A DNA stretch of 38,205 nucleotides, taken from assembly GCF_000346505.1 (NCBI RefSeq), contig NZ_ANOH01000088.1, forward strand, positions 1-38,205, read 5' to 3'. The position numbers and the translations under genes are program-made. The stretch is from Aporhodopirellula sallentina SM41. GTDB lineage: Bacteria > Planctomycetota > Planctomycetia > Pirellulales > Pirellulaceae. The notes under the pieces are model-generated. The model saw only the letters and a program-made list of their open reading frames with translations, made no database searches and was not told the DNA's origin. This document shows positions 19,163 through 37,390 of this stretch, piece after piece (positions within the stretch are counted from its first letter, which is position 1; each line of letters starts with the position of its first letter).

Positions 19163-20591
19163 ATGAAACGCACTCTACCAATCCTGAAATCGCTCATCGG
19201 TCCAGCGATCGTGATCGGCGTTGTCGTCGCGTTGTGGCTCTTTCGCGATCGCTTGGTCAGCTCGAGCGAATTGAGCGTGGCAGAGGCAACTGCGAGCGAG
19301 ACCGGCAAATCAACCGAGAAGCAAACCGTCTTGGAGATCAGCCCTCAAGCGCGAAAGAACTTGGGGCTCGTTTCCAAGCCCGCGAAGCCGCAAGAGTATT
19401 GGCGATCCGTTTTGATTCCTGGAGAGATTGCGGATCGACCGGGCATTTCTGATCGGGGCGTGACGTCTCCGGCTGTGGGAGTGGTGACGGCAATTCATGC
19501 CTATCCGGGCGACACGATTCGACCGGGCGAGCGGCTCTTCACGCTACGGTTGTTCAGCGAATACCTGCAAGCCACCCAGACGCAGTTGTTCAAGGCACGA
19601 CAGGGAAACGGGGATCATACAGGCGAGGATTGACAGGTTGTCTGGTTTGGCGGCGTCGGGGGCCGTTTCCCGAAGCGAGCTGATTGATTTGAAGAGCGAA
19701 ATCAAACGGCAAAACACGCTCATTCAATCCGCTCGGCAGGAGTTGCTCACCCGCGGTTTGCTTCCGGACCAAGTCGCACAGATCGAGGAAGGCACTTTCA
19801 TTTCAACGGTCGATATCGTCGCCCCGCCTGCGATCGCGACACCGATCGCGACGGGCATCACAAAGTCGAATTCGGTGCAACAAGCGAGCTTGCTCACCGA
19901 GGTCCAATCGACCGATGGATTTACATACGAAGTGCAGGAGCTTTCCGTCGAAATGGGCCAGCAAGTTCAAGCGGGGCAACTGCTTGCCAAACTATCCAAC
20001 CATCAATCGCTTTACGTCATCGGCCATGCATTTAAACGCGAGGCATCGTTTTTGGAGCAAGCTGCTCAGGAGCGGCGACTGATCCGCATCGAGTTTGCTG
20101 AAGACGACGATGGCCGTTGGCCTGAGTTGCAGCAGCGTTTCGAGATTCGACATCTATCGAACTCGATCGACAGGGAAAGTCGCACGTTCGATTTCTTCCT
20201 ACCACTGACCAATCAATCCCGGGTCTACGAAAAACAAGGCAAGTCGTTTCTTGTGTGGCGGTTTCGTCCGGGCCAACGAGCGCGGCTGCATGTGCCAGTT
20301 GAAAAATACGAGAACGTGTTTGTGGTTCCTGCGGCGGCGGTCGTGCGCGAGGGACCGGAAGCGTATGTGTTCCGCCAGAACGGCGATTTGTTCAAACAGT
20401 TCCCCGTCCACGTTTTGCATGAGGATCGCCAATCGATCGTGATTGCCAACGACGGCAGCATTCGAGCCGGCAGTTATCTCGCCCAAAGCGCAGCCGCTTC
20501 GCTGAACCGCGTGCTCAAGGCACAGACTGCAAGCGGCGAGCAGCCCGGTCTACACGTCCACCCCGACGGAACCGTGCATGCTGCGCATTGA
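19163..20591 (+). pseudogene. Heavy-metal efflux membrane fusion protein (CzcB/CusB type), frameshifted
   Basis: Periplasmic adaptor that would link the RND pump to an outer-membrane channel. The first frame begins MKRTLPILKSLIGPAIVIGVVVALWLF (membrane anchor) and continues through VLEISPQARKNLGL and a lipoyl-like segment (VGVVTAIHAYPGDTIRPGERLFTL) to LQATQTQLFKA. The frame is lost between about 19592 and 19607, and the remainder continues one base later from RETGIIQARIDRLSG. That part includes a second half-lipoyl region (VQELSVEMGQQVQAGQLLAKL), the beta-barrel, and VFVVPAAAVVREGPEAYVF. The joined protein would have about 475 residues with all regions present. One extra base (or two missing) explains the break, so a sequencing error is possible. 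The TGA stop at 20589-20591 falls at the edge of an inverted repeat. Confidence 0.87.
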
Positions 20592-20648
20592 TTGAAGAAT
20601 GTCGATTGTCGATTGAAGATTTGGTAGAGCGAGAGCAGGGAACGAGAG

Positions 20649-20999
20649 ATGAATGATTTGGAATTGAAGACTCGGACGAAGCAGTTTGCTTTACGAGTGA
20701 TGAAGCTTGTTGGAGCTTTGCCGCAGAATGCTGTCGGACGCCCGATTGGTAGTCAGTTGATTCGCAGTGCGACGTCCGTCGGTGCAAATTATCGAGCAGC
20801 CTGTCGTGGCCGATCAAAAGCTGAGTTTGTCTCAAAGCTAAGCATCGTGATCGAAGAAGCAGACGAGAGTTGCTATTGGCTCGAACTGATCATCGAAGGC
20901 AGCCTTCTGCCAAAAGAAAAAGTCGAGGCCTTACTCGATGAAGCAAACCAAATCACAGCAATCATGGTCGCATCCAGGAAAACAGCCAAGAGGGAATGA
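20649..20999 (+). CDS. Four-helix-bundle protein (S23 / 23S rRNA IVS-type)
   Basis: A 116-residue protein matching the four-helix-bundle (S23) family, first known from ORFs inside intervening sequences of 23S rRNA and related to the avd accessory protein of diversity-generating retroelements. Typical features are LKTRTKQFALRVMKLVGALPQ, GRPIGSQLIRSATSVGANYRAACRGRSKAEFVSKLSIVIEEADE (read in two parts, about 32-75), and CYWLELIIEG. The positive N-terminal helices could bind nucleic acid. It is complete, with ATG at 20649 preceded by purine-rich sequence. No biochemical role is firmly established for the family. Its position between two metal-efflux genes and inside inverted repeats marks it as an insertion rather than part of the pump. 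Confidence 0.88.
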   Translation: MNDLELKTRTKQFALRVMKLVGALPQNAVGRPIGSQLIRSATSVGANYRAACRGRSKAEFVSKLSIVIEEADESCYWLELIIEGSLLPKEKVEALLDEANQITAIMVASRKTAKRE

Positions 21000-21039
21000 A
21001 GATTTACGATTGCCGATTGAAGATTGCCTGAACAAACCT

Positions 21040-21179
21040 CCAACCTCCAACCTCCAACCTCCAACCTCCAACCTCCAACCTCCAATCTCCAATCTCCAAC
21101 CTCCAATCTCCAATCTCCAATCTCCAATCTCCAATCTCCAATCTCCAATCTCCAATCTCCAATCTCCAATCTCCAATCT
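21040..21179. repeat. 7-bp tandem repeat, 20 copies
   Basis: Twenty uninterrupted units of CCAACCT or CCAATCT cover 140 bases. Seven of the first nine units (in all, the first six and the ninth) are CCAACCT; the rest are CCAATCT. Because 7 is not a multiple of 3, loss or gain of one unit shifts the frame. The run contains no stop codon in any frame, so open frames pass straight through it (period SNLQPPT / ISNLQSP). The array lies just upstream of the RND pump start at 21211. Confidence 0.93.
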
Positions 21180-21210
21180 CCAATCGACATTCTTCAATCG
21201 ACAATCTTCA

Positions 21211-24200
21211 ATGTTAGATTCAATCATTCGCCTTTCCCTTCGTTACCGGATGCTGGTTGTTTTCGCCAGCCTCGCGGTGCTTGTGTACGGTTCGTACCTC
21301 GCTACCGAGATGTCGATTGACGTTTTTCCTGATCTCGATCGGCCCCGCGTTGTCATCATCACTGAAGCTCCGGGATTGGCGACCGAGGAAGTGGAGACGT
21401 TGGTAACACAGCCCATCGAAATTGCATTGATGGGGGCCAACGGAGTCCAAGCCGTTCGCAGCCAATCGACCGCCGGCTTGAACGTCATCTACATCGAATT
21501 CGATTGGACGACGGAGATTCGTGCTGCACGGCAAACGGTGCAGGAACGACTGACCACTTTGGAAGGCATCTTGCCGGACGGCATTCGGCCTCAGATGACG
21601 CCGCCATCGTCGATCATGGGGCAGATCGTCGTCGCCGGAATCTATCGCCAGGACGGACCACGTGGTGGAAGACTCGCGCAAGTCGGCACCACCACGATGA
21701 TGGCCGAACTGGTTGTCGGAGATGACGGACGTGTTGATGTTCAGGTTTGGCGGCCTGGTGACCGGCATGATTTTTCGACTTGGCAACGTATTGAAACTCA
21801 GCGAGTTGAGTGGCGTTTGAGTGAGCCGACGGCGCTAGCCGCGGGTTCCGTCGCGAAGATGCCCGAGGCTAGCGCCTACGGCTCACGAAGTCAGAAGATG
21901 CCCGAGGCTAGCGCCTACGGCTCACGAAGTCAGGAAACGCCCGAGGCTAGCGCCAACGGCTCACAAAATCAGTTGACCGGAACGGCGACCATTCGCGTCG
22001 GCGACCAAGAGTACGCGGCAAATTTTTATAGTGACCAGAAACGGCAACTGGAACTTCGCACGATCGCCGACTGGGTGATTCGACCTCGTTTGTTGAAGAC
22101 GACCGGTGTCGCCGAGGTCTTCATGCAGGGCGGCGACCGCAAGCAGTATCAAATTCTGATCGACCCGACCGCTCTGTTGGAATACGACGTCACGGTTCAG
22201 GATGTCGAACGGGCATTGCGGGCGAGCAACATCAATACGAGCGGTGGCTTCGCGGTCACTGGTGAAACCGAACGACCGATTCGCGTTCTTGGACGATTGG
22301 GGCCGCAGTCTCGAGTTGTGATCGAAGACCTGAAAAAGATTCCGGTCGGCTATCACCCGAAACGGGCCGTGCTGCTTGAACAGGTCGCCCGAGTAACCGA
22401 AGGTCCGCAACTGAAACGGGGTGACGGCAGTGTCGATGGCCATCCCGGAATTGTGTTCACCACAGTCAAACAGCCGCACATCGACACACGAAAGCTAACC
22501 GACGATGTGGCCGAAGCTTTCGCGGAAGTCGAAGCGTCGTTGCCGGCCGATATTATCATCAACTCCGAACTCTTCCGGCTGAAGAACTTCATTGATCGAG
22601 GGATTTTCAACGTCGCCGAAGCGTTGGTGATCGGTGCGGTACTCGTCATCATCGTGCTGTTTCTGTTCTTGCTGAACTTTCGCACGACGTTCATCACGCT
22701 GACCGCGATTCCGCTTTCGCTAGTCCTGACCACGCTCGTCTTCCGAGTGATCGGGATGCTCAGCGGTAGCGAACTTTCGATCAATGTCATGACGCTCGGA
22801 GGAATCGCGGTCGCGATGGGCGAACTGGTCGATGATGCGATCGTGGACGTCGAAAACATTTACAGAAGATTGAAGATTGCCAATTGTCGATTGAAGATTG
22901 ATCAAGAAGATTCAGCAATCGTCAATCGACAATCATCAATCTCCATTGTCTTCCACGCAAGCAAGGAGATTCGCAGCTCGATCGTGTTCGGCACCGCCGT
23001 CGTGATTCTCTCCTTCTTGCCGCTGTTCGCCTTGTCGGGCGTCGAAGGTCGTTTGTTCACGCCGTTGGGCGTTGCCTACATCGTTTCGATTTTGGCCTCG
23101 TTTGTCGTTTCGATGACCGTCACACCGGTGCTTTCGTATTACTTGTTACCGCAATCCCGTGCAACTCACCGTGAAGGCGACGGTTTTCTCTTGCACGGGC
23201 TGAAGAACTTGGCAACGCCGCTGATTCGTTTAAGCATGGCCCTGCCGCGCACGCTGTTGATATTGACTTGGATTGCCGTTGGCATGGCTGCGTTGCAAAT
23301 GTCACAGCTCGGACGAAACTTCTTGCCGCCCTTCGACGAAGGCAGTATCCAAGTCAACGTAACGCTTCCGCCCGGGTCGTCGCTCGACGCGTCCAATCAA
23401 GTTTCTGGATCGATCGACGCGGTGTTTCAGTCCATGCAGAAGACGGACGAGAATCCTGACGGTGAGATACTTCACTTTGTGCGCCGGACGGGACGGGCAG
23501 AGATGGATGAACACGCTTCGCCCGTCAACTTCGGTGAATACATCCTCAGCATGAACCCGGAATCGGAAACGCCGCGTGATGAGATCCTTGCGGACGTACG
23601 TGAACGGATCAGCGACGAAGTTCCCGGCGTTGACATTGAAGTCGAACAGCCACTTGCTCACTTGATCAGCCACATGGTCTCCGGGGTTTACGCTCAGATC
23701 GCGATCAAGATTCACGGCGATGATCTCGACACATTGCAGCGAGTTGCCGAGCAAATCAAAACGACGATTCAAGATGTCCCCGGCATCACGCCGCCGATCG
23801 TCGAACCGATCCGGGAAACGTCCGAGTTGCACATCAAATTGCGAGCCGATGACCTGGCGTTCTTCGGATTGACTCGACAGTACGTTGCCGACGTTCTGCA
23901 GACCGCACTGCAAGGTGAGGTTGTCTCGCAAGTCCTCGAAGGCCAGCGGCGTTTCGATTTGATGGTGCGATTGGAAGAGGAATACCGAACCGATTACGCA
24001 AACCTCGGACGGCTTCGCATCGACTTGCCGCATCACGAAGGCGAATCGGAACGAGGCCAGATCGAACTTCGCGAGGTCGCGGACGTTGGCGAAGGCACCG
24101 GCCCGAACTCGGTCAATCGCGAGAACGCTCGGCGACGAATCGTGATCCGTTGCAATACCGAAGGCCGCGATTTGGCTGGAGCAGTCGGTGAAATCAAACA

Positions 24201-24819
24201 GCTTATCGGCGATCAGGTGCAGATGCCGCTTGGTTACTTCATCGAATACGGCGGCCAATTTGAGAGTCAACAACGGGCCACGCAGCTCATTATTGTTTTG
24301 GCGGGCGTTTCGGTTATCGGAATGTTCGTCGTGCTGCTGCTTTTGTTTCCGTCGGTGCGAGTCGTTCTGCAAATCCTGAACGCATTGCCCACCGCGTTCA
24401 TCGGCGGTGTGCTGGCATTGGTCATTACCCAACAAACGTTGACCGTCGCGAGCTTGGTTGGATTCATCTCGCTCGGCGGAATCGCGGTTCGCAACGGTAT
24501 TCTTCTCGTCACACACTACTTTCACTTGATGAAAGAAGAAGGCGAGGAGTTTTCGCAAGAGATGATCATGCGTGGCAGTCTCGAGCGACTCGCACCGGTG
24601 CTTATGACAGCACTGACCGCCGGCATCGGCCTGATTCCATTGGTGTTAGGCGGCCAAGAACCCGGTCGCGAAATTCTCTATCCCGTCGCCACGGTCATCC
24701 TTGGCGGACTGACCACATCGACGTTTTGCGAGTTTCTGATTCACCCGGGATTGTTTTGGAAGTTCAGCGGCAAAGCTTTGTCGATCGAGGATTTGCGATC
24801 GAAGAATGAAGATTTCTGA
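21211..24819 (+). CDS. Heavy-metal efflux RND transporter (CzcA/CusA family)
   Basis: A 1202-residue proton-driven inner-membrane pump that would export metal cations with the fusion protein. The N-terminus (MLDSIIRLSLRYRMLVVFASLAVLVYGSYLATEMSIDVFPDLDRPRV, in two parts) is the standard first helix and porter region. ADWVIRPRLL, a TM4 motif with Glu538, Asp541, Asp542 and Glu548 (GELVDDAIVDVEN), FALSGVEGRLFTPLGVAYIVS and GGIAVRNGILLVTHY are family hallmarks. The open frame extends upstream to 20938, but only through repeats and the S23 gene, so ATG 21211 is chosen. It has no Shine-Dalgarno sequence because the preceding bases are repeat. Two in-frame insertions (about residues 204-254 and 553-578) and the C-terminal tail are made of interspersed repeats. 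The length exceeds the usual 1040-1100. No outer-membrane channel gene is present nearby. Confidence 0.93.
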   Translation: MLDSIIRLSLRYRMLVVFASLAVLVYGSYLATEMSIDVFPDLDRPRVVIITEAPGLATEEVETLVTQPIEIALMGANGVQAVRSQSTAGLNVIYIEFDWTTEIRAARQTVQERLTTLEGILPDGIRPQMTPPSSIMGQIVVAGIYRQDGPRGGRLAQVGTTTMMAELVVGDDGRVDVQVWRPGDRHDFSTWQRIETQRVEWRLSEPTALAAGSVAKMPEASAYGSRSQKMPEASAYGSRSQETPEASANGSQNQLTGTATIRVGDQEYAANFYSDQKRQLELRTIADWVIRPRLLKTTGVAEVFMQGGDRKQYQILIDPTALLEYDVTVQDVERALRASNINTSGGFAVTGETERPIRVLGRLGPQSRVVIEDLKKIPVGYHPKRAVLLEQVARVTEGPQLKRGDGSVDGHPGIVFTTVKQPHIDTRKLTDDVAEAFAEVEASLPADIIINSELFRLKNFIDRGIFNVAEALVIGAVLVIIVLFLFLLNFRTTFITLTAIPLSLVLTTLVFRVIGMLSGSELSINVMTLGGIAVAMGELVDDAIVDVENIYRRLKIANCRLKIDQEDSAIVNRQSSISIVFHASKEIRSSIVFGTAVVILSFLPLFALSGVEGRLFTPLGVAYIVSILASFVVSMTVTPVLSYYLLPQSRATHREGDGFLLHGLKNLATPLIRLSMALPRTLLILTWIAVGMAALQMSQLGRNFLPPFDEGSIQVNVTLPPGSSLDASNQVSGSIDAVFQSMQKTDENPDGEILHFVRRTGRAEMDEHASPVNFGEYILSMNPESETPRDEILADVRERISDEVPGVDIEVEQPLAHLISHMVSGVYAQIAIKIHGDDLDTLQRVAEQIKTTIQDVPGITPPIVEPIRETSELHIKLRADDLAFFGLTRQYVADVLQTALQGEVVSQVLEGQRRFDLMVRLEEEYRTDYANLGRLRIDLPHHEGESERGQIELREVADVGEGTGPNSVNRENARRRIVIRCNTEGRDLAGAVGEIKQLIGDQVQMPLGYFIEYGGQFESQQRATQLIIVLAGVSVIGMFVVLLLLFPSVRVVLQILNALPTAFIGGVLALVITQQTLTVASLVGFISLGGIAVRNGILLVTHYFHLMKEEGEEFSQEMIMRGSLERLAPVLMTALTAGIGLIPLVLGGQEPGREILYPVATVILGGLTTSTFCEFLIHPGLFWKFSGKALSIEDLRSKNEDF
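21821..21972. repeat. In-frame palindromic/tandem repeat, type C, within RND gene
   Basis: Two identical-in-core 39-base units starting CCCGAGGCTAGCGCCTACGG (21862-21900 and 21901-21939) and a third diverged, truncated unit (21940-21972) encode PEASAYGSRSQKM repeats. The arm at 21821-21845 (GTGAGCCGACGGCGCTAGCC and on) is an inverted copy of the unit start. The 39-base period keeps the frame. The insert lies in the periplasmic porter region of the pump, before QLTGTATIRVGDQEYAANFY. Confidence 0.85.
22864..22945. repeat. In-frame palindromic repeat, type D, within RND gene
   Basis: Left arm 22868-22899 (GATTGAAGATTGCCAATTGTCG and on) and right arm about 22917-22944 (AATCGTCAATCGACAATC and on) form an imperfect hairpin. 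They encode LKIANCRLKIDQEDS and AIVNRQSSI. The insert follows VENIYRR in the cytoplasmic loop after TM4 and precedes IVFHASKEIRSSIVFGTA, the normal next element of the family. The sequence is the same family as the arms that flank the S23 cassette. Confidence 0.85.
24780..24816. repeat. Type D repeat forming the RND C-terminus
   Basis: GATCGAGGATTTGCGATC followed by GAAGAATGAAGATTTC is a diverged half copy of the type D arm. It encodes the last residues (SIEDLRSKNEDF) and reaches the stop codon, so the natural end of the pump appears to have been replaced or extended by repeat sequence. Confidence 0.6.
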
Positions 24820-24919
24820 CACGAACAATTTGATTGGATTTACAGTTTCCGCGATTCTTGAGTTTGGTTTTCCAGTCGCCAAACACTTATCAAGAACCGC
24901 TATTTCAAAAGGTATCACG

Positions 24920-25426
24920 ATGAACGTAATGAAGTACGCACTGCTGTCGATGAGTCTGATGATTCATGTTGGCTGTAGTCAGAAAACGCCCGTCAACGAG
25001 CGGCCAGCCCAAATCGACAATCTTCAATCGTCAGTCGACAATTCACACGACCACAGCGTCGCAGGTCACGCACACGGTGCCGGACCGCACGACGGCACGA
25101 TCGTCGACTGGGGCGGTGGCAAGTATCACGTGGAGTTCACCGTGGATCACGACAAGCAGGAAGGCACTGCCTATATCCTTGGCCCTGATGAAAAGACACC
25201 AACGCCGATCACCGCCGAAGAGATACAATTGGCGATCACCGACCCGGCGATGGAAGTCACTTTGAAAGCGGCTCCGCAAGAAGGTGACCCTGAAGGTTCG
25301 GCGTCGCGCTACATCGGCAATCACGAGAAACTCGGAGTCGTCCAAGAGTACGCCGGCACGATCACCGGCCTCATCGACGACACACCCTACTCAGGCGACT
25401 TCGCCGAAGTCGCCCACGACCACTAG
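24920..25426 (+). CDS. Putative lipoprotein with His-rich segment, metal-efflux accessory
   Basis: A 168-residue protein. The N-terminus (MNVMKYALLSMSLMIHVGC) is a lipoprotein signal with the lipidated Cys at 19. After a Ser/Asn-rich linker comes a His cluster (HDHSVAGHAHGAGPHDGTIVDWG), then a compact beta domain (KYHVEFTVDHDKQEGTAYILG; ITAEEIQLAIT). The gene follows the RND pump by 100 bases. Location and His content suggest a periplasmic metal-binding accessory of the pump, which is inference. The ATG at 24920 was preferred over the upstream in-frame start at 24806 because only it yields a signal peptide at the N-terminus and has AAAGG upstream. Residues about 31-42 derive from a type D repeat. 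Confidence 0.75.
   Translation: MNVMKYALLSMSLMIHVGCSQKTPVNERPAQIDNLQSSVDNSHDHSVAGHAHGAGPHDGTIVDWGGGKYHVEFTVDHDKQEGTAYILGPDEKTPTPITAEEIQLAITDPAMEVTLKAAPQEGDPEGSASRYIGNHEKLGVVQEYAGTITGLIDDTPYSGDFAEVAHDH
25012..25044. repeat. Type D half repeat inside the lipoprotein gene
   Basis: AATCGACAATCTTCAATCG followed by TCAGTCGACAATTC matches the right arm of type D repeats. It is in frame and encodes IDNLQSSVDNS in the linker between the lipid anchor and the His cluster. Confidence 0.7.
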
Positions 25427-25432
25427 GAGAAG

Positions 25433-25502
25433 GTCGATTGGAGATTGCCGATTGAAGATTAATTTCTTTGACTCTTCATTCTTCAATCGACAATCTTCAA
25501 TG
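25433..25502. repeat. Type D palindromic repeat, full solo copy
   Basis: Left arm GATTGGAGATTGCCGATTG (25436 on) and right arm ending CGACAATCTTCAATG (25502) form an imperfect hairpin, six bases past the lipoprotein stop. The right end (TCAATCGACAATCTTCAATG) is identical to the one that supplies the ATG of the RND gene at 21211. Confidence 0.8.
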
Positions 25503-26341: not shown

Positions 26342-27208
26342 ATGTCCGAGTCTTTGGTGGTAGCAACAGACGCGTCTGAAAGCGTTGACGCTTTGAACGA
26401 TGTGATCATTCGTACGCTGGCGACGTTCGATGAGCCGGCAACGCTAGTAACGCTTCGCAAAAAACTGCCCGTCCCCTATCAGTGCGAAGAAGAGATCCTG
26501 CGACAAACGTTGGAGGAGTTAACGCGGCGAAATTTGGTCCATCGGTTTTCTCCCTATCGCGGCAAAGCCGATCGCTATTGGGGACGCTCCCCAAAAGAAT
26601 ATGCGGAGTGGCTGTTAACGACCCAAACGGTTGGACGATTCGCAACGAAGAATGAGCTGGTCAAGCAGTTCAAGGCTCGTCTGAAGGAACTGAGCAACAA
26701 GGAGATTGGCGATCTCGTGCAACAACTCGCTCGTTCTGGCAAGCTGCATTCGGGACGGTTTCTGGGAAGTCGTTCGATGCGATACTCCGCAACTCCCGTC
26801 GATGCCCAGGCGTTGTTGGACAACGCGATTGATCAGATCGCTCGGCGGTTTTCCACTTCGCCCGCTGATGTGCGATCGCTGCTCGTTGAAGACGATCAGC
26901 CGCAACTCGAAGAAACATCAGCGTCACCTGAATCGGCGTCACATGAATCACTGATCATGGACGCGATCTCAGAGATGCGACCAGGCGGTGGAGGCGGAAC
27001 GATCGTTCCGATTGCGGAGCTGCGTCGGTATCTGAATTTCAAAATCGATCGAGACATGTTTGACGAAACATTGCGTACCCTGGAACGCTCCGGACGCATC
27101 GATTTCACGGTACATCCCGATCCGATGTCGCTCGGTGATGACGATCGACAGGATCGCTTACTTGGCGAAGGCGGAACAGTTTATGACATGTTAGTCGTTC
27201 GGAGGTGA
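26342..27208 (+). CDS. Winged-helix-like protein, first gene of nuclease-translocase operon
   Basis: A 288-residue soluble protein with no membrane segment. Its helix-strand patterns suggest two or three winged-helix units: about 20-80 (VIIRTLATFDEPATLVTLRKKL, EEILRQTLEELTRRNLVHRF, RYWGRSP), 85-150 (KNELVKQFKARLKELSNKEIGDLVQQLARSGKLHSGRFLG, read in two parts) and 205-285 (IVPIAELRRYLNFKIDRDMFDETLRTLERSGRIDF, in two parts). Each ends in a beta wing after a recognition-type helix. It may bind DNA or act as a kleisin-like or adaptor subunit. Its TGA is four to six bases before the next gene start, and the three genes are tightly packed, so a joint complex is likely. No named family is recognised. 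The Gly-rich run GGGGG (about 218) separates the last unit. Confidence 0.85.
   Translation: MSESLVVATDASESVDALNDVIIRTLATFDEPATLVTLRKKLPVPYQCEEEILRQTLEELTRRNLVHRFSPYRGKADRYWGRSPKEYAEWLLTTQTVGRFATKNELVKQFKARLKELSNKEIGDLVQQLARSGKLHSGRFLGSRSMRYSATPVDAQALLDNAIDQIARRFSTSPADVRSLLVEDDQPQLEETSASPESASHESLIMDAISEMRPGGGGGTIVPIAELRRYLNFKIDRDMFDETLRTLERSGRIDFTVHPDPMSLGDDDRQDRLLGEGGTVYDMLVVRR
27201..27205 (+). promoter_or_regulatory. Ribosome binding site that decides the ATPase start
   Basis: GGAGG at 27201-27205 lies eight bases before ATG 27214. An in-frame GTG at 27205 overlaps the stop of the previous gene but would start inside this site, so ATG 27214 is preferred. Confidence 0.75.
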
Positions 27209-27213
27209 CTGAG

Positions 27214-29229
27214 ATGACGACAAGTGCGAGTACAGCGGTGGATCCTTCGTTGCCTAACCCGTTTTTGGGCGGCATCGTTCCCGACGCGTGGCGAGGTGCG
27301 ACTGCGGACGTGCCGGAGATTCACGGTGACGTGTACGCGAAATGTTTCGCAGCGGTCCAAACCGTGCGGACGCGGCAGCAGAGTTCCTCGGTGTTGATTC
27401 ACGGTGAACAGGGGAGCGGCAAAACGCACCTGTTGGCGCGGTTGCAACGGCAGCTGACCGATACCGAAAACTACCCCGATCTGGATGACGATTGGCAGAT
27501 TTTCGTGTATCTGCGGATGCGAACGTCCTCAGGTCGGATCTGGCGTAAGATCCGAACGGAACTGGTGACGGATCTGATGAGGCCGATGCCCGATGGTCTC
27601 ACGCAGCTCGATCATGTGCTCGCGAAACGACTGGCTGCTCACTTCGATGGTCATGCGGATTTGGCACTGTGGTGGGACCATCACCGCAACGAACGCATGG
27701 AAGAACTGATCGATGCGTGGCACGAGATCGCCATGCAGTTGAGCTTGCGGGATGATTTCACACAGGTGCTCGAGTGCTTCATTCGCGGCAATCATCGTCG
27801 CCACGTCCGCGCGTACTTGAGCGGTGGATTGGTCAGCGAAGCAGGGTTCCGGCATTTGTTTGGCAACGTTGATGCGAGCCACTACGCACCCGATAACGAG
27901 GACGATGCGTTTAGCGCGGTAAAAACACTGTGCCATGTCGCCGGGCCACAGATTCCGATCGTGTTTTGTTTTGACCAGATCGAAGCGATCGAGGTCGAAG
28001 ATTCGAATCGCAAACCGGTCTGGTATCTTGCTCGCGCGGTCGCGGACCTGACCGACGAGGCAGCCGTGGCTGCGATTTCATGTGTGTTGGCGAACTTTGC
28101 CGACGATGAGATTCGATCGCAGGATCGGGCACGGCTCGTTTCGGGAGGTCAAACGGCGCTGCAGCGACTCGACCGGAATCAAATGCAGCAAGTGATCCGA
28201 TCACGTGTCACCGCCATGCAGGCCACGGCGGATGCGGCGGGCGAGAACATGCATTGGCCGTTTGCGGAGGACGAACGCATGTTCGCCTCCCGTTCGACGC
28301 CTCGCGAGTTGCTGCATGCCGCCGCAACGCGCTTTGACGAGCTGCAAGGAACCGTTGCGGCGCCGCCGACGACTGAGAAGACGCCGGCACTAACAAAACT
28401 TTTTGAAGACCGCGTCGACGAAGCGATTCGATCGCAGAAGCCAGAAGACACCGATGACCTCATCGCATCAACGTTGCCCAACCTGTTGTCCATTCTCGAG
28501 CCAGGCTGGACGACCGATTACCCCACGGGCCCGCACAATAACAAACGTGACATCGAGTTGGTCTTGGTCGGACCTGATGAAGAGGCTCGGGTCGGAGTGG
28601 CGTTGTGCAATCAGCCCAGCATGACCAGCTTGGCAGCACAGCTCAAGCGTTTGATCGAAAACCGCGAAGCATTCAAACTGCACAAGTTAGTTCTGATCCG
28701 GGACGGTCGCTTGCCGATTTCACCCGGGGCAGCTGCAACTCGCAAGCGGATCGATCAGTTGACCAAAGATGAAGGCGTGTTAGTACGACCGACTCGCGAG
28801 GTGATGGCCGTGCTCGATGCGGTCCGTTCACTGATTGCCGATGCGACCTGCGGTGACCTGACGCTCGACGGCCAGGCAGTCGGCATCTCGACGGTGCGTC
28901 AATGGTTGGCCAATCATTTGGATGCGGTGACTCGCGAATGGGTCGATCAGTTTTGTCGTCCGTCGCGTCCCGGGTGGCACGACGAGGCAACGGCCGACGA
29001 TTCCGATATCGACGCGGTGCTCGAGTATCTCGCGGACTGTCCTGTCGTGTCGATGGACGCGATGTCCCAAGCCACGGGTATCGCGGAATCACGCATCGTC
29101 GAACTCGGCAGAGTCGCCAGTGATCGATTGGGGATCGTCAGCGGCGAGCCCACGGTAATCTTTCGAGTCGCGAGTTCGAGTTCATCCGAAGAGGAAGTCC
29201 AATTGATGCAAGGGAGTGGAACACGATGA
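27214..29229 (+). CDS. P-loop ATPase, second gene of nuclease-translocase operon
   Basis: A 671-residue AAA-type ATPase. Walker A is GEQGSGKT (64-71, Lys70) and Walker B is VFCFDQIEAI, with Asp254 followed by Gln instead of Glu. A Gln at this position is unusual and could slow hydrolysis, suggesting a switch-like or DNA-sensing role. Arg-rich segments after it (RSRVTAMQATAD; STPRELLHAAATRFDELQ) look like sensor and lid regions. The middle part (about 415-540: DIELVLVGPDEEARVGVALCNQ, LVLIRDGRLPISPGAAATRKRI) resembles a small alpha/beta domain. The C-terminus looks like a winged helix (DIDAVLEYLADCPVVSMDAMSQATGIAES). The architecture recalls the ATPases of BREX-like and Dpt-like defence systems, but I cannot match it to one. 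The stop overlaps the next ATG (ATGA). Confidence 0.88.
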   Translation: MTTSASTAVDPSLPNPFLGGIVPDAWRGATADVPEIHGDVYAKCFAAVQTVRTRQQSSSVLIHGEQGSGKTHLLARLQRQLTDTENYPDLDDDWQIFVYLRMRTSSGRIWRKIRTELVTDLMRPMPDGLTQLDHVLAKRLAAHFDGHADLALWWDHHRNERMEELIDAWHEIAMQLSLRDDFTQVLECFIRGNHRRHVRAYLSGGLVSEAGFRHLFGNVDASHYAPDNEDDAFSAVKTLCHVAGPQIPIVFCFDQIEAIEVEDSNRKPVWYLARAVADLTDEAAVAAISCVLANFADDEIRSQDRARLVSGGQTALQRLDRNQMQQVIRSRVTAMQATADAAGENMHWPFAEDERMFASRSTPRELLHAAATRFDELQGTVAAPPTTEKTPALTKLFEDRVDEAIRSQKPEDTDDLIASTLPNLLSILEPGWTTDYPTGPHNNKRDIELVLVGPDEEARVGVALCNQPSMTSLAAQLKRLIENREAFKLHKLVLIRDGRLPISPGAAATRKRIDQLTKDEGVLVRPTREVMAVLDAVRSLIADATCGDLTLDGQAVGISTVRQWLANHLDAVTREWVDQFCRPSRPGWHDEATADDSDIDAVLEYLADCPVVSMDAMSQATGIAESRIVELGRVASDRLGIVSGEPTVIFRVASSSSSEEEVQLMQGSGTR

Positions 29230-31109
29230 ACAATTCCAATACGCCTGCTGTCGAAATCTCCGTCAGTGACGTCCGGCAGCAGATCTATTGCGCGAGTCCG
29301 AACAACGGTCCCGGCAAGGCTTCACAAACCGATCTGGGCACGACGTTCCATCGTTTGATCGCTTCGTTGTTGCATAGCAGCGAGCGAGAGTTATCGGCAA
29401 TCTTCAGCGGGGCATCGATCGACGACTGGGTTGCCGAGATGCAGGATTTGGCATTTCGCAAAGAGCTTGGCCCTTTCTTAGAAGGGCACGCCGCAGCGTT
29501 GCACGGCCGTGGTGCCGCCGTCTTGAATCTATGGACCGCGGTGGGCGAGGCCACGCGATGGCTGGCCGAACTGTTTTGGGAGCATCGTCAATGGCAACTG
29601 CGTGAGGGGCGTCACTTCAACCCACGAGAGTTCGCCGATTGGTTTCAAAACGAGGTGCCGCTGCGTCTTGAATTGACCGACACGAACTGGACCTGTCCTG
29701 TTGTGCTGACCGGGATCGCGGATTCGCTGCTCACCCTGCCTCAGGGACGTCGCTGCGTGATCGAGTACAAGCTGGGCAAGACGTCCCCCGAGGCAGATCT
29801 TTGCCAAGCCGCGCTGTACCACAGGATGCTCGGTGAAGGTGAAACGAACTCGTTGGCTGTCGTTAGCTTCCTACCGGAAAAATCGGAACAGTTAGTTGAT
29901 GGAGCGAAACTTGGCGAGGCGCAGTCCGAACTGAAGGCGCTGATTGGAAAACTGGCGGGCGTGATCAAGACGCCAGCCTCCCGTCCGGCGGAACCACAAA
30001 AGGCTGCCGCCCAGAAGCCCGCCACACCGCCGGTCTCGAAGGAGATTGGCGAACTCGGCAGGCTCTTGAAGTCAGCGTTATTCGAAGCGGGATGTGATGC
30101 CACGTTCAGCGTGACCCCCATTTTGGGACCAACATTTGTCCGTTTTACGGTTACGCCGTCGCGAGGAATTGCTCCCAAAAAATTCCTGCGTTGTGCCGAT
30201 CTGCTGCAGGTGCGATTGCAGTTGGAGCGACCGCCCGTGATTCAGATCGGCTCTGCGATCACGATCGATTTGCAACGGCCCGATCGTCAAATTGTCCCAT
30301 GGAGTTCGGTCGAGCTTCCGAAGTCCGATCCGCTGCATGGCTGTGCCAAAGTCCTCGTGGGCGTAGGCATCGACGGCAAACTGCGAACGGCCGATCTGGC
30401 GGACACGGCCAGCTATCATTTGTTGGTCGCCGGGACGTCCGGCAGTGGCAAGAGCGAATGGCTGCGTACCGCGGTTGCCGGTTTGATTGCCTCGAACACG
30501 ACTGAGCAGTTGCAGGTCGTCGCTATCGATCCGAAGCGTGTTGCATTTCATGACTTGCGTGATTCTCCCTATCTGCGTCGTCCGGTGGTCTTCCCCGGTG
30601 ACGAGGACGCTGACATTCTTGAAGTGTTTGATGAGTTGATCGACGAGATGGAACGTCGCTACGTGATGCTTCAGGGGTGTTCGTCGCTGTCGGAATTGAT
30701 TGACCGACGTGGCGAACCGATTCCACGCATCGTGTGTGTGTGCGACGAGTACGCGGATTTGATGCTAGGGTCGGCAAGCCAGCGTTCCGCGATTGAAACA
30801 CAGATCACGCGATTGGGAGCCAAGGCGCGAGCCAGCGGCATTCACCTGATCTTGGCGACGCAGCAACCGAGCCGAAAAACGATTACCGGCGCGATCCAAA
30901 CAAACCTTCCGGGCCGGGTCGGTTTAACGATGACCTCGGCAACCGAGAGCCGGATGTTGTTCGGCGAGCCCGGCGCGGAGAACCTGCTAATGAAAGGCGA
31001 CCTGCTCTACAAAGACATTGGCGATCCCAAGCGATATCAAGCCGTTTATCTATCCGACCAAGAACGCCGCGCGATCTACGCCGGTTCAGTCGTTGCCGAA
31101 ACGGTGTGA
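29226..31109 (+). CDS. RecB/Cas4-like nuclease fused to FtsK/SpoIIIE-type DNA translocase
   Basis: A 627-residue two-domain protein. The N-terminal half (about 1-240) is a PD-(D/E)XK nuclease: Asp166 (GIADSLL), Glu180-x-Lys182 (CVIEYKLGK) and the QxxxY motif Gln194/Tyr198, as in RecB and Cas4. The C-terminal half is an FtsK-type motor: Walker A AGTSGSGKSEW (Lys409), DPKRVAFHDL, Walker B IVCVCDEYADLM (Asp507, Glu508), ATQQPSRKTITGAIQTNLPGR (read in two parts) and MLFGEPGAENLLMKGD, all FtsK hallmarks. An Ala/Pro linker (about 255-275) joins the two. No membrane helices or gamma domain are present, unlike chromosomal FtsK. The protein is expected to move along DNA and cut it. ATG 29226 overlaps the ATPase stop by four bases, indicating coupled synthesis. 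Confidence 0.92.
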   Translation: MNNSNTPAVEISVSDVRQQIYCASPNNGPGKASQTDLGTTFHRLIASLLHSSERELSAIFSGASIDDWVAEMQDLAFRKELGPFLEGHAAALHGRGAAVLNLWTAVGEATRWLAELFWEHRQWQLREGRHFNPREFADWFQNEVPLRLELTDTNWTCPVVLTGIADSLLTLPQGRRCVIEYKLGKTSPEADLCQAALYHRMLGEGETNSLAVVSFLPEKSEQLVDGAKLGEAQSELKALIGKLAGVIKTPASRPAEPQKAAAQKPATPPVSKEIGELGRLLKSALFEAGCDATFSVTPILGPTFVRFTVTPSRGIAPKKFLRCADLLQVRLQLERPPVIQIGSAITIDLQRPDRQIVPWSSVELPKSDPLHGCAKVLVGVGIDGKLRTADLADTASYHLLVAGTSGSGKSEWLRTAVAGLIASNTTEQLQVVAIDPKRVAFHDLRDSPYLRRPVVFPGDEDADILEVFDELIDEMERRYVMLQGCSSLSELIDRRGEPIPRIVCVCDEYADLMLGSASQRSAIETQITRLGAKARASGIHLILATQQPSRKTITGAIQTNLPGRVGLTMTSATESRMLFGEPGAENLLMKGDLLYKDIGDPKRYQAVYLSDQERRAIYAGSVVAETV

Positions 31110-31747: not shown

Positions 31748-33739
31748 ATGAAACGTGCCTACTATTCTGATTCCATCGCAAACTTCCTCACTGAGAATCA
31801 CAACACGATTCTGGGGCATCTGGTTAGCAGCAGCGAGTTCTCGGTCGAGAGCACTCAACGCGATGCTTGGATGTGTCAAATCAAGCTTTTGAAAAAGTTA
31901 CTCATTGGAGTAGGTGGCACGATCTACTTTGAGTATTCGATTCCACGAATGGGAAAGCGAGTTGATGTATTGCTATTAATCGGCAATGCCATCTTCGTCG
32001 TCGAGTTCAAGGTTGGCGATACTCAGCACTGGTCTGGTGCACTGAACCAAGTCACCGACTACGCACTCGACTTGAAGAACTTCCACGATGCCAGCCACGA
32101 TCGTTTTGTCGTACCAATTCTGATCGCAACCGAAGCCGAAGCGTCGCCAGTACGAATTGAATCAACGCCACGTCGAGACGGTTTGTTAGCAACCATTCGG
32201 TCCAATGGAAACAACCTCGGAACGATCATTTGCGAAGTTCAAGACTTCGTTGAAGCAGCGGCGGCGGGTGATCGCTCTCAGATTGAGTCGTCGAGTTGGG
32301 AAAGCGGAAAATACCTTCCAACGCCAACGATCATTGAAGCCGCAATGGCTTTGTACAACGGGCATTCGGTCGCTGAGATTTCACGAAGCGATGCGAGCGG
32401 CGCCGAATTGCATCGCACCACGGACACGATTTCGACTGTCATTGAGAACGCCAGAGCGGGACGGCACAAGGCAATTTGCTTTGTGACAGGGGTACCAGGT
32501 GCAGGTAAAACACTCATCGGGTTGAACATCGCGACGCGTCATTTGGATGACCAAAGCAACACCTACAGTGTTTTCCTGTCAGGCAATGGCCCGCTCGTCC
32601 AGATTCTTCAGGAAGCACTTGCTCGCGATAAGGTGGCGAGGGAGAAGGCTGCGGGGCGGCGAGTCACCAAATCAGCGGCACGCAGTGAAGTGAAGACATT
32701 CATTCAAAATGTCCATCACTATCGTGATGAGTATTTGAAGGACAGCCGGGCACCGGCGGATCACGTTGCTTTGTTCGATGAAGCCCAGCGAGCTTGGGAT
32801 TTGCAGCAGACATCCAAGTTCATGCGGCAGAAGAAGAACCAGCCAAATTTCAATCAATCGGAACCTGAATTCTTGATTTCGTGTATCGACCGTCACGAAG
32901 ACTGGGGAGTCATCGTCTGTCTTGTAGGTGGCGGGCAGGAAATCAACACCGGGGAGGCGGGGATCGCAGAATGGGTCGAAGCACTGAATCGCTCATTCCC
33001 GGACTGGCACATCCACATTTCCGACCGTTTAACCGACAGCGAATACGGTGCGGGCGAGGTGCTGTCGAGCATCGAATCTCGAGAGAACGTGCACTACGAT
33101 TCAGGCCTGCACCTGTCCGTGTCCATGCGATCATTTCGTGCCGAGAACGTGTCGAGGCTGGTCAAAGAGATTCTGGATTTGGACGCGGAGAGCGCCTCAC
33201 TGACTCTGCGGTCAATTCGCGAGAACTACCCAATCGTTTTGACGCGGGACCTTGCCAAAGCGAAGGCCTGGATGCGTCAGCAAGCTCGCGGAAGCGAACG
33301 CTACGGAATTGTGGTGTCATCACAAGCGAACCGTCTCAAGCCGTTGGCGATCGACGTTCGATTACAGCCCAACCCGATTCATTGGTTTCTCGCGGGACGC
33401 GAGGATGTCCGATCTTCCTATTACCTGGAGGACGTCGCCACGGAATTTGACATCCAAGGCCTCGAACTCGACTGGGCCTGCGTCACTTGGGATGCGGACT
33501 TTCGCCATGCTGACGATGGTTGGGTCTACCGCTCATTCCGAGGCAATAAGTGGCAGAAGATAAACAAGGCTGAACGCCAAGCCTACCTCAAGAACGCCTA
33601 CCGCGTCCTCTTGACGCGAGCGCGCCAGGGAATGGTCGTTGTTGTTCCGACAGGTGATGCCCAAGACCCGACCCGGGATCCTGCGTTTTACGACTCCACC
33701 TACGTCTACCTGAAGTCGATTGGAATTTGCGAGATTTGA
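31748..33739 (+). CDS. PD-(D/E)XK nuclease-DUF2075 helicase-like protein
   Basis: A 663-residue protein. The N-terminal part (about 1-150) carries a nuclease signature: Asp73 in [10 protein letters not shown] and Glu86-x-Lys88 in FVVEFKVGD. The rest is a DUF2075 superfamily-1-like motor: Walker [11 protein letters not shown] (Lys254), Walker B FDEAQRAW (Asp344, Glu345), motif III-like [43 protein letters not shown] and the C-terminal [20 protein letters not shown]2075 proteins are common in mobile and defence regions; this one is predicted to unwind and cut nucleic acid. It sits alone, 638 bases after the operon. The ATG has only a weak purine run upstream. All key residues appear intact, so the gene is probably functional. 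Confidence 0.9.
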
Positions 33740-34097: not shown

Positions 34098-36512
34098 ATG
34101 GAAAAAGAAATCCAAGAATTTTTAGATTATTGTGCCGGAATGAAAGAGGTTGCATTTCAAAAGGAAATCGTCTGGCCGTTTCTCGATGCGTTAGGTGCGA
34201 CATCAATACAGCATACGCACGGGAACAATGAACGTGGCAAGGACTTTCTTTATATATACCCTTCCGGTTATAGCACCGAGGAATTGCATGCTTGCGTCGT
34301 CAAGAACGGAGGATTCAACTCCAGGGCTGGAGACTCGAACTCAGTTCAGACGGCATTGCTCCAGATTGAGACTGCCCGCAGAACTACGGCACTAAATCCC
34401 GTTACCATGGAGAACGAGGTCCCTCGACGGGTCCTATTCATCGGAACCCATGCATTTCCTGATAAGCATTCAGGCAATCTTGCGGAGCAAATTCGAGAAG
34501 TCGAGCGATACTGTCGTTTTTGGTGGTCCGAGGATTTTGCGATTGCGTTCCGAGAAAAGTGCGAATCACTTTTTCACAATGTCGTTCGACCAGGCCATAT
34601 GATCTCGGATTCACTTTGCAAAGACGTGACACTGCATCGCGAAGCACATGTCCTGAAGTTGCCACTAGGCCCCTCGTTTCGGGTCTACGTCAACATGTGC
34701 ATGTCGTCAAACCTTGAGACACTCCGCACTTTTGTTGAAAGAAAGAAAAAGCCGCGTGCAGTGTATGCAGAGCACGTTAGCAAGAGGCTAGTCAATTACA
34801 CCGCTGCATTACGAGAAGCACTTCAGCCAAAAATTGAATTGCCCGACGTATTTGAGGTTGGAGAGCAACCGAATGAACGAGTCAAAGAAAGTGCAATCGA
34901 ACTCGGAAAAGTCTCGGTTCAACATGTCGCGTTGGACGAATTATATGATTTTGTTGTCGATGTGCAAACTGGAGATGCAGCAAATGCGAGTATCGACCAA
35001 GTGTTTGCGGCTCAGACCATTCTTGGCCAGATTCTTGAGCAACTCGGTGACCATCAGCACTCCACAGAGGCCGGGTCACGCCACTTGGGTTTGATAGGTG
35101 ATCGAGTAGACGCAGTAGACGCGATCGTGTCCGCACACGATGATCTTCTTCTTTTAGGCGATCCCGGCGGTGGCAAGACTTTCACCGCTAAGGAAGTTTT
35201 CATCCGTTCCGTCGAGGCGAATATCTCATGTGTGTATTTTCCGTGTTCCCGCATTCGATCAGAGAATGACGATCTTCTTGAATCAATCGTGAACTACGTA
35301 TCTTCTATTACAGGCGCCTCCCAAGAAGAGGCGTCCGACTACGTTTCAGAATGCGAGCTGTTAATCGTTGACGGAATAGACGAAGCTAGGAGTTTGGAGA
35401 ACGGTCTCCTAGACCAAATTGAACAACTGTCGCATTCGCATCCTGCGAGTCTTGCAGTCGATCCGGATAAGATCAAAGAACTCGATTTGGCTCCCGATTC
35501 AACCCGGGCAAAGATTGAGTTGCGGCATGCCGGCAAGATTCCCGTTATTTCTCTCTCTGACAAATTGTTTTGGGACGAAGCATCGGTTGTCTCGCAGCTT
35601 CTATTTGATGACGAATCGAGCCGCGATAATGCATTTCACGAGCTCCAGAAATCTAGACGCGTGATTGCGACTTGCAGGGCGACCGTTCCCATTGATTTGG
35701 GGCCTGCGTTTCGCTCACTGAACCTACTCCCGTTCACTGAGAATGAGCTTCGAGAGTTTGTTGAACGCCATTGCGAGGCGAAGAACCATGACGCGAATTC
35801 GTTGCTTGAGTTCTTTCGAAAGAATGACTACATACACCAGGTTTGCCGGAGTCCGATGACCGCGTCAATCATGGTTGGAATCTACTTGAGAGGAGAAGAA
35901 CTGCCTTCTTCAAGATCGGAGCTATATGAGACGAGAGTCCAGCTTTTGCTGAGTGAGTGGGACCTCGCCCGTGAGGTCGAACGGCCAGTTGACGGTCGAA
36001 AGAGTTCAAAGCTCTCTTTACTTGGCTACCTCGCTTACGTCATGCAACACGAAGGAATGGTTGAGGTAGATAAATACACGGCGATACGTACTTGTGAGCA
36101 AAAGCTTGGCTCAAAGATCCAAGGCGTTTCGATTTCAACTCTGATTGACGAACTCGTTGTGCATCATTGCCTGCTGGTTCGTCATGCAGGTAACTTGTTG
36201 AGCTTTGGTCACTTATCGCACCAAGAGTTTTTCTGCGCTCGTTACATGGTGTTTTCGCAGAAACTAAACGAGCTTGTTGCAAAATTCGGTAATCGCTGGT
36301 GGCGGAACGTTTGTTTCTTCTTCGTTGGCATTAGCGAATCCGCAGATGTTTTGCTCGAAGCAGTTCATCGAGAGAGTGGTTTCATTGGGCAGGAACAGTT
36401 TGTTCACGAATTGGGAGAAGAAGGGAAGTTCGCAAGTGACTTTATGAGGTTTGCGGATGAAGCTTCATTGATTGACGATGATATTGATGATGACCTAGAT
36501 GAGTACTCATAA
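34098..36512 (+). CDS. NACHT NTPase, probable anti-phage (bNACHT-type) protein
   Basis: An 804-residue STAND NTPase. The NACHT core has Walker A LLLLGDPGGGKTF (Lys360), Walker B LLIVDGIDEA (Asp425, Asp428, Glu429), the sensor-like VIATCRA, and a winged-helix region ending in LSFGHLSHQEFFCARYM, close to the HLTFQEYF motif of the family. The N-terminal region (about 1-150: EVAFQKEIVWPFLDALG, NNERGKDFLYIY, HACVVKNGGF) resembles a restriction-endonuclease-like fold, with Asp49 and Lys69. The acidic residue expected two positions before the Lys is missing, so activity is doubtful. The acidic tail DDDIDDDLDEYS closes the protein. Bacterial NACHT proteins are known anti-phage factors that sense infection and trigger an effector. 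Codons appear more A/T-rich than in neighbours, which suggests horizontal transfer. Confidence 0.9.
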   Translation: MEKEIQEFLDYCAGMKEVAFQKEIVWPFLDALGATSIQHTHGNNERGKDFLYIYPSGYSTEELHACVVKNGGFNSRAGDSNSVQTALLQIETARRTTALNPVTMENEVPRRVLFIGTHAFPDKHSGNLAEQIREVERYCRFWWSEDFAIAFREKCESLFHNVVRPGHMISDSLCKDVTLHREAHVLKLPLGPSFRVYVNMCMSSNLETLRTFVERKKKPRAVYAEHVSKRLVNYTAALREALQPKIELPDVFEVGEQPNERVKESAIELGKVSVQHVALDELYDFVVDVQTGDAANASIDQVFAAQTILGQILEQLGDHQHSTEAGSRHLGLIGDRVDAVDAIVSAHDDLLLLGDPGGGKTFTAKEVFIRSVEANISCVYFPCSRIRSENDDLLESIVNYVSSITGASQEEASDYVSECELLIVDGIDEARSLENGLLDQIEQLSHSHPASLAVDPDKIKELDLAPDSTRAKIELRHAGKIPVISLSDKLFWDEASVVSQLLFDDESSRDNAFHELQKSRRVIATCRATVPIDLGPAFRSLNLLPFTENELREFVERHCEAKNHDANSLLEFFRKNDYIHQVCRSPMTASIMVGIYLRGEELPSSRSELYETRVQLLLSEWDLAREVERPVDGRKSSKLSLLGYLAYVMQHEGMVEVDKYTAIRTCEQKLGSKIQGVSISTLIDELVVHHCLLVRHAGNLLSFGHLSHQEFFCARYMVFSQKLNELVAKFGNRWWRNVCFFFVGISESADVLLEAVHRESGFIGQEQFVHELGEEGKFASDFMRFADEASLIDDDIDDDLDEYS

Positions 36513-36617
36513 AGCAGCGGTCTTATCGCAGCCGGACTTCTGGGAAACCGGATGGTGCCACCCACCAATCGCCCGCTTCGCGGGGGGAGCGAAAAACGCC
36601 AGTTCTTCGTCTCGGTT

Positions 36618-37125
36618 GAGTCAATCGGACTTTGTATGCGGCACTGCCCGTGTGATGACTGGCGGACGATCCTGGTGTTGACTCGATTCGGCGGACTTTG
36701 TTGTTCGTCGGAATTAGTGTCCCTGCGATGAAGCGACGTCGACTTGGAAGCTGGCAAAATGACGGGCAACGCCTCCAAGACCGAGCACCATGCGATCGGC
36801 GGAGTTCGGGGTGCCAGTCTTTCCGGGCGCTACGGTCCTCTCTCCAGGCCGCGTGGCATCGTATGCCGGACGGTCCCAAGTCGCCGTTGGTCATCACCGC
36901 TATCGGCGACCGGAACAAAACCTGCGGCAAACATTGCTGAAAATTTTGAAAGCTGCGGGTGTGGCACCCTGGCCGCGACTCTTTCAAAACATGCGGAGGT
37001 CCCATGAGACGGAACCGATGGCTCGCTATCCGGCCAAGGGCGTGTCGCGGCGGCTGGGCAACAGTGTGCCGGGTTTCAATGCGGCACTCCGCGATGGCAA
37101 TCAATTTTTCGTTTGTGGCGGCGGC
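36618..37125 (+). pseudogene. Decayed tyrosine recombinase (integrase), C-terminal half
   Basis: Reading across frames recovers a planctomycete-type integrase catalytic domain. Frame 1 gives DDWRTILVLTRFGGLCCSSE, then LVSLR, an in-frame TGA where Trp is expected (36729-36731), then SDVDLEAGKMTGNASKTEHH. After a frameshift near 36810 come VPVFPGA and, in a further frame, MPDGPKSPLVITA. The last segment is YRRPEQNLRQTLLKILKAAG, then VAPWPRLFQNMRRSHETEPMA and RRLGNSVPGF. The first catalytic Arg (GGLR) is Cys, and the C-terminal Tyr segment is not found. The gene is dead. Its remnants end about 190 bases from tRNA-Val, the likely attachment site of the island on its left. Confidence 0.75.
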
Positions 37126-37246
37126 GGATCCATGGGATCGACGGTGACCCGCAAGCTCGTCTGGCCCCAGACAACCGTCTGGCGGTTCCACTGGTGGTTC
37201 CATTTTGGGTGTATCTGGTGCTATTGAAGCTGAGGACCAAAACGCA

Positions 37247-37281
37247 GAAAGCCCTGTTTTCGCTTGGAAAACGGGGCTTTC
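37247..37281 (-). terminator. Hairpin downstream of tRNA-Val, probable terminator
   Basis: Arms 37247-37260 and 37268-37281 (GAAAGCCCTGTTTT and its complement with one G-U) enclose a 7-base loop. On the minus strand the hairpin lies 36 bases past the tRNA 3' end and is followed by a short TTTT run five bases later. The fit to an intrinsic terminator is fair rather than perfect. Confidence 0.65.
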
Positions 37282-37315
37282 GATAGTTCAAGATAGTGTG
37301 GGGAACTACTATCTG

Positions 37316-37390
<75 letters not shown>

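Follow-up and report, generated by a model that had tools for sequence, protein, structure and literature searches.

A 38,205-nucleotide stretch of the planctomycete Aporhodopirellula sallentina SM41 (contig NZ_ANOH01000088.1, positions 1 to 38,205 of the forward strand; hereafter the window), taken from a host assembly of 8.19 Mb in 491 contigs, carries a cassette of three closely packed genes, 4.8 kb in size, whose products are called here P1, P2 and P3. An earlier note on this DNA, made from the letters and without database searches, had singled out the three genes as a candidate undescribed DNA-processing or defence system. The cassette comprises the following features:

26342..27208, + strand: P1, 288 amino acids, repeated winged-helix-like units, proposed DNA-reading/targeting subunit (open reading frame, profile comparison)
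27201..27205, + strand: GGAGG ribosome-binding sequence ahead of ATG 27214 (sequence)
27214..29229, + strand: P2, 671 amino acids, AAA+ ATPase of AAA_16/AAA_22 type (Orc/Cdc6-STAND sort) (Pfam, alignment)
29226..31109, + strand: P3, 627 amino acids, PD-(D/E)XK nuclease, FtsK-alpha-like region and FtsK motor (Pfam, alignment)

The three open reading frames (ORFs) run from 26342 to 27208, 27205 to 29229 and 29226 to 31109, all on the + strand. The second opens at GTG 27205, but ATG 27214 is preferred as the start of P2 because of the GGAGG upstream of it. P2 then has 671 amino acids, the length of its homologue P0001 (96% identical), and a gap of 5 bases (27209-27213) separates it from P1; with the 4-base overlap of P2 and P3, this is the same-strand packing that the earlier note had described. 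The nearest relative of P2 among the matches listed, at 96% identity, carries the label Rhodopirellula sp. JB044.

Protein searches returned at least 242 relatives of P2, at least 60 of P3 (residues 1-370 as the query) and 16 of P1, the window's own included, and a scan of GTDB contigs led to 48 loci. P1, P2 and P3 follow each other in the same order and on one strand in 18 of the 22 loci whose P2 homology is clear (L004-L025), a count that takes in the loci in which P3 is cut by the contig end (L006, L011, L015, L020, L022 and L023). Loci L026-L051, whose P2-like proteins match at E 1e-10 or worse and which have no P3, were left out of the 22, and the partial P2 matches of L058-L060 were not counted as trios. 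Among the exceptions, L012 has no P3, and in L019 P2 is split into two frames at the contig start, the position of P1 lying beyond the contig. No P1 is present in L021, the FtsK of which groups with a host-phylum FtsK in the motor tree described below, or in L024, in which P2 extends to the contig end. Trios were also found in three further genomes (L054, L055 and L057).

Some loci rearrange the parts. P2 and P3 are fused into one protein in Minicystis rosea (L013, one of the 18), and a D12 adenine methyltransferase gene lies directly upstream of this fused version (L013 7996-8958). In L066 (6111-11734) a protein kinase is followed by a P1 homologue and then by a P2-FtsK fusion without a detected nuclease domain, and in L069 a P1-like gene adjoins a P2-like protein of 988 amino acids. 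Over 19 loci the distances of P1, P2 and P3 correlate with r values of 0.87-0.92, as high as in none of 1000 permutations, which is evidence of co-inheritance, not of physical contact. The trio is a real conserved gene unit, and the claim that the three genes form one unit is upheld, at the gene level, by this survey of neighbourhoods.

P1 comprises a first unit (residues ~8-80), a second (~82-155) and probably a third (200-288). In profile comparisons the first unit matches the second with a probability of 98%, which identifies the two as internal repeats, and the third with 71%; the second and third match each other with 9%. Repeated winged-helix-like units, as predicted from the letters, are present at least in the form of the first two. 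No family above cut-off was found for P1 in Pfam, PADLOC or the other family libraries scanned. Searched against the PDB, the P1 family profile gives weak matches (best E 0.003) to chains that we take to be winged-helix proteins, and these matches hint at a winged-helix fold. P1 is the fastest evolving of the three proteins, with a mean pairwise identity of 24% over 19 loci vs 32% and 41% for the other two, and in L065 it carries an additional N-terminal unit.

P2 matches AAA_16 (E 9.4e-9) and AAA_22 (E 1.2e-8) above the Pfam cut-offs and, beside AAA_16, has weak matches to NACHT and nSTAND1; the DndF model of PADLOC scores only E 0.075. Its Walker A motif is GEQGSGKTH and its Walker B motif CFDQ. 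The Walker A lysine and the Walker B aspartate and glutamine are invariant among 89 aligned P2 proteins, so that the unusual DQ, already remarked upon in the earlier note, is a family trait and not a sign of decay. The same DQ occurs also in nucleoside triphosphatases of the nSTAND type. Further along, the alignment displays a conserved, alpha/beta-looking block at ~425-560 without a D/E-x-K motif and a C-terminus that looks winged-helix-like by eye; no profile confirms either of them, and Pfam searches with C-terminal slices of P2 gave nothing above cut-off.

P3 joins a PDDEXK_1 nuclease (E 3.6e-7) to an FtsK_SpoIIIE motor (E 4.5e-32), the RecB/Cas4-like nuclease and FtsK-type fusion anticipated by the earlier note. 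Across 28 P3 homologues the FtsK_SpoIIIE domain is recognised in all 28, PDDEXK_1 in 19 and FtsK_alpha in nine. All 19 loci compared and all 28 homologues retain the residues D166, E180-x-K182, Q194 and Y198, as would be expected of an intact PD-(D/E)XK nuclease of the RecB/Cas4-like kind. A cyanobacterial P3 (L082 8944-11010) additionally has an N-terminal cysteine and, following the nuclease, a CxxCx5C cluster, which the P3 of the window does not have; a cluster of that kind is a motif of the iron-sulphur nucleases of the Cas4 type. The P3 family profile aligns to solved FtsK structures (E 5.7e-79) from position 276 through the motor, and the protein terminates directly after it, so that the FtsK gamma domain, which normally reads DNA, is absent. 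In L016 a glutamate replaces the Walker B aspartate of P3.

A motor tree was built from 31 loci, of which L076, L077 and L079 were skipped for short coverage, leaving 28. In this tree 15 trio motors, the cyanobacterial one included, form a clade with support of 0.98, separate from SspH and from ten host-phylum FtsK proteins (support 1.0), which were assumed to be cellular FtsK. Support for grouping the L066 motor with the trio clade is only 0.42.

The cassette is a rare, patchy, mobile and accessory unit. Record titles place it in planctomycetes, Verrucomicrobia, a myxobacterium, Acidobacteria and Desulfobacterales/Syntrophaceae. Among 60 relatives, the own genome included, four have P2, as do two of the 13 genomes of the genus. 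In larger samples it was found in at least 6 of 392 genomes of the phylum, four of the six being partial matches, and, query genomes included, in at least 1 of 282 genomes of the phylum of L013 and at least 2 of 297 of that of L016; these phylum-level counts are lower bounds, three to four candidates having been scored in nearly all genomes shown. A P2 match is found on only one of 72,556 plasmids and in no phage record. This plasmid, from Pseudanabaena PCC 7367, is typed as conjugative and carries a diverged trio in the same order with a P2 of ~20% identity. By profile its P2 is recovered at E 7e-49 and the nuclease and motor of P3 at E 5e-128, and of its P1 only the last unit (E 5.5e-12). 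When 16 window proteins outside the trio were compared with eight other P2 loci, a single weak match emerged (28% over 290 amino acids, L065).

Several known machines combine similar parts. The three proteins gave no match to the PADLOC models of BREX, DISARM, Zorya, Wadjet and Druantia at E values up to 1, in agreement with the earlier note, which could not place the trio in any of these systems. PADLOC did label P3 as SspH (E 4.3e-45), but this identity was rejected since the model (PDLC02806) responds to the generic FtsK motor. It matches in 132 of 246 host-phylum genomes with E values of 1e-60 or below, almost always through its C-terminal part, G063 (L070/L083) being the sole full-length place among those listed, and also in 4 of 14 named control genomes, Bacillus subtilis for example. 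The motor tree disagrees with the label too, as do comparisons with the authentic proteins at L083, where SspF and SspG were named by gene position: SspF and P2 have no more than the P-loop in common, SspG has no match with P1, and SspH resembles P3 in the motor only. Since ordinary FtsK matches it, the PADLOC SspH model is likely to produce false-positive SspH calls.

SspFGH resembles the trio in having three genes, a Walker A ATPase and, in one protein, an FtsK-like C-terminus, and it needs phosphorothioation (PMC8092258). DndFGH (PMC10853773) likewise joins a restriction endonuclease (REase) and a HerA/FtsK motor in one subunit, next to DndG with its triple winged helix and the P-loop partner DndF; DndH, however, has ~1700 amino acids and eight domains, and P3 has 627 with nuclease and FtsK only. 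DndC was not found in the host genome. The BREX-related capture (BRC) systems, to which PMC12839542 extends the idea of HerA/FtsK capture, combine a motor, an Orc/Cdc6-type ATPase and a multi-winged-helix protein. Pfam searches of the trio and four neighbouring proteins gave no match to PglZ, DUF6079 or DUF4007 at E values up to 1.

The best counterpart is found in the ‘HerA/FtsK capture systems’ of Rakesh, Aravind and Krishnan (Nucleic Acids Research 2024; PMC10853773), which include an Orc/CDC6-coupled class. This computationally predicted class comprises an Orc/CDC6 ATPase, an active REase from either of two families, a HerA/FtsK motor (with FtsK-alpha in one subset) and a winged helix; an inactive REase sits in the ATPase between the AAA+ core and the C-terminal winged helix, and a subset has a rapidly evolving protein of 2-4 winged helices, related to DndG, SspB and FokI. 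In the trio, P2 corresponds to the ATPase as far as the broader family is concerned (AAA_16, AAA_22), and P3 corresponds both to the active REase, judging from its unchanged nuclease residues, and to the motor, with the FtsK-alpha subset feature in the nine homologues mentioned above. P1, with its repeats and lowest identity, corresponds to the separate fast-evolving protein of the subset. Not spelled out in the accessible text of that article is a single protein that unites FtsK-alpha and motor with a RecB/Cas4-like nuclease. On this comparison of parts and layout the cassette is probably a member of a published defence class known from computational prediction, and ‘undescribed’, as the earlier note had it, is no longer the right word.

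Beyond the trio the window continues with the following neighbours:

31748..33739, + strand: SLFN-g3 helicase PF09848 (E 4.6e-83), PADLOC PDC-S41 (E 3.8e-289)
34098..36512, + strand: NACHT/AAA-like protein, weakly similar to EruA over residues 541-628
36513..37316, + strand: degraded tyrosine-recombinase (integrase) remnant within this stretch (by eye, nucleotide alignment)
37317..37390, - strand: tRNA-Val, edge of the variable region

What had been called a DUF2075 nuclease-helicase is thus the SLFN-g3 helicase, which PADLOC names PDC-S41, a candidate defence protein; no further copy was seen in eight stretches from other loci or among 104 flanking proteins. The supposed NACHT protein is NACHT/AAA-like, but every Pfam match it has stays below cut-off. 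A tRNA accompanied by a dead integrase had also been reported. The tRNA is real, and the Rfam scan of the window detected nothing besides it. The stop-broken frame next to it resembles a tyrosine recombinase by eye and aligns, at 75% nucleotide identity, to a same-genus genome (L109) in which the open frame barely reaches the Phage_integrase cut-off (27.2 vs 27.1 bits, E 3.8e-6), but none of the family libraries scanned names the remnant itself.

The tRNA site was compared in 11 of the 12 other genomes of the genus, G003 being excluded because its match is preceded by 691 bases at a contig start. All 11 stretches (L106-L116) conserve the tRNA-Val, a variable junction of the genus, together with a small gene on its far side that looks S21-like by eye. 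In eight of the 11 the alignment starts at the 3' end of the tRNA (37311-37316), and in the others it extends left to 37083 (L106), 37192 (L107) and 36576 (L109). The rest of the window, sought on the variable side of the 11 stretches, gave only one weak protein match (L111), L107 and L116 reaching only ~1 kb on that side. Since the alignments stop near the tRNA, the trio belongs to the variable side, ~6 kb from the junction. The window contains no further exact match of 14 bases or more to the tRNA 3' end, as an attachment-site repeat would provide, and the comparison with other P2 loci and same-genus stretches did not reveal where the variable region ends on the other side.

To see the company kept by other trios, up to three genes per side were scanned at 25 loci, L062 standing in for L004, which it and L053 very probably repeat. 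Removal of eight ORFs judged spurious and of the long gene 20938-24816 reduced the 113 flanking ORFs to 104 proteins. PADLOC named 48 families among them at E 1e-10; each of the best 25 occurs in one protein only, and several look generic (methyltransferases, a Pycsar cyclase). Pfam named 126 families, and none of the best 25, mostly metabolic, transport or signalling, is found in more than two proteins. The defence- or modification-type neighbours that could be traced are the PDC-S41 gene of the window and the D12 methyltransferase of Minicystis. The argument from a defence island therefore stands for the window, with its PDC-S41 and NACHT-like genes, tRNA and integrase remnant, but gains no clear support, as judged without a background control, from the flanks of the 25 loci.

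Elsewhere in the window, heptamer-based repeats of the CTCCAAT, CGACAAT and GATTGAAG types lie within positions 20590-25501. They surround and enter an ORF of 1293 amino acids (20938-24819), RND efflux-like by eye, with a 25-copy tandem array of 7 bases near its start (21038-21212). The same ORF contains three tandem copies of 39 bases (21855-21972) and a hairpin-like pair of heptamer repeats (22864-22945), further copies of which occur in neighbouring ORFs.

How might the three proteins work? The interpretation that we favour, and which we hold to be somewhat probable, is that the trio is a mobile, stand-alone cassette for DNA interception of the HerA/FtsK capture kind, in its Orc/CDC6-coupled class. 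P3 subunits, each with a RecB/Cas4-like nuclease, would form an FtsK-type ring round double-stranded DNA and pump it. DNA reading, in FtsK the task of gamma, would pass to P1 together with P2; P2 would load or license the motor on the target DNA and so gate P3, and the loaded P3 would translocate on the invading DNA and cut it. The ring, this division of labour, the target and the action against invaders are what we infer from the parts. A defence role for the trio rests on its anatomy, its mobility and its membership of the published class. The idea that the motor tracks along the DNA and cuts it is close to what the authors of PMC10853773 propose for the class, namely that the ATPase localises the apparatus and the motor intercepts the selfish element.

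A number of observations sit uneasily with the interception cassette. The Orc1/Cdc6 model TIGR02928 scores only E 0.04 on P2, and the inactive REase expected there gave only 0.4% in a profile comparison with the P3 nuclease. FtsK_alpha is not significant at E 0.001 in the window's own P3. The flanks of the other trios revealed no clear defence enrichment, as judged without a background control, and no experimental study of such a trio or of its class, phage or plasmid assays included, was found in the open-licence PMC literature. Finally, no modification gene was recognised beside the trio of the window and no DndC in the genome, which leaves the sparing of self DNA unexplained.

This last point would be accommodated by a suicide device, in which P2 senses infection in the manner of STAND proteins and P3 degrades DNA indiscriminately, the host chromosome included (abortive infection). 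The lack of a recognised adjacent self-marking gene and of DndC would then cause no difficulty, and the weak NACHT and nSTAND1 matches of P2 as well as the PDC-S41 and NACHT-like neighbours are in keeping with it. However, P2, at 671 amino acids, is without a long sensor-repeat region, and a motor-fused nuclease with a separate DNA reader suggests action on chosen molecules; we consider such a device rather unlikely. Less likely again is a modification-dependent restriction like that of DndFGH or SspFGH, relying on a modification enzyme encoded elsewhere. It would share the logic of an ATPase, winged helices and an FtsK motor with nuclease, and in Minicystis a methyltransferase gene lies immediately upstream of the fused version. 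That enzyme is nonetheless the sole one traced among 25 loci within the best 25 families of each list, the authentic SspF and SspG have little or nothing in common with P2 and P1, and the host has no DndC, no genome-wide search for other modification enzymes having been made. Both the suicide and the modification-dependent schemes overlap with class membership and could hold for a member of the class. Tentatively, and with some doubt, stand-alone restriction independent of modification may also be envisaged: an FtsK-type ring would carry as many as six nucleases, with an exchangeable multi-winged-helix adaptor replacing gamma as the reader. Self and non-self would then be told apart by the state of the DNA (free ends, replication or transfer intermediates) and not by a chemical mark.

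Two further explanations dispense with defence. The trio might serve the maintenance, transfer or competition of a mobile element. In favour of this are the conjugative type of the plasmid that carries one such trio and, in the window, the location on the side of the tRNA junction that varies and holds an integrase remnant; yet no transfer gene appears among the best 25 of the 126 Pfam flank families at the 25 loci, and one plasmid of 72,556 and no phage record is a meagre harvest for such a function, which we judge improbable. An accessory role in chromosomal DNA repair or segregation is the least plausible of all. The motor is related to FtsK and the best 25 Pfam flank families are often housekeeping-like, but the distribution is very patchy, and the host has another FtsK-like gene (G000:C319) that matches the motor model better.

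Being compact, recurrent across phyla and endowed with conserved nuclease residues and Walker motifs, the cassette is a convenient object on which to test whether FtsK-type pumps intercept foreign DNA and how, in that case, the cell's own chromosome is spared.

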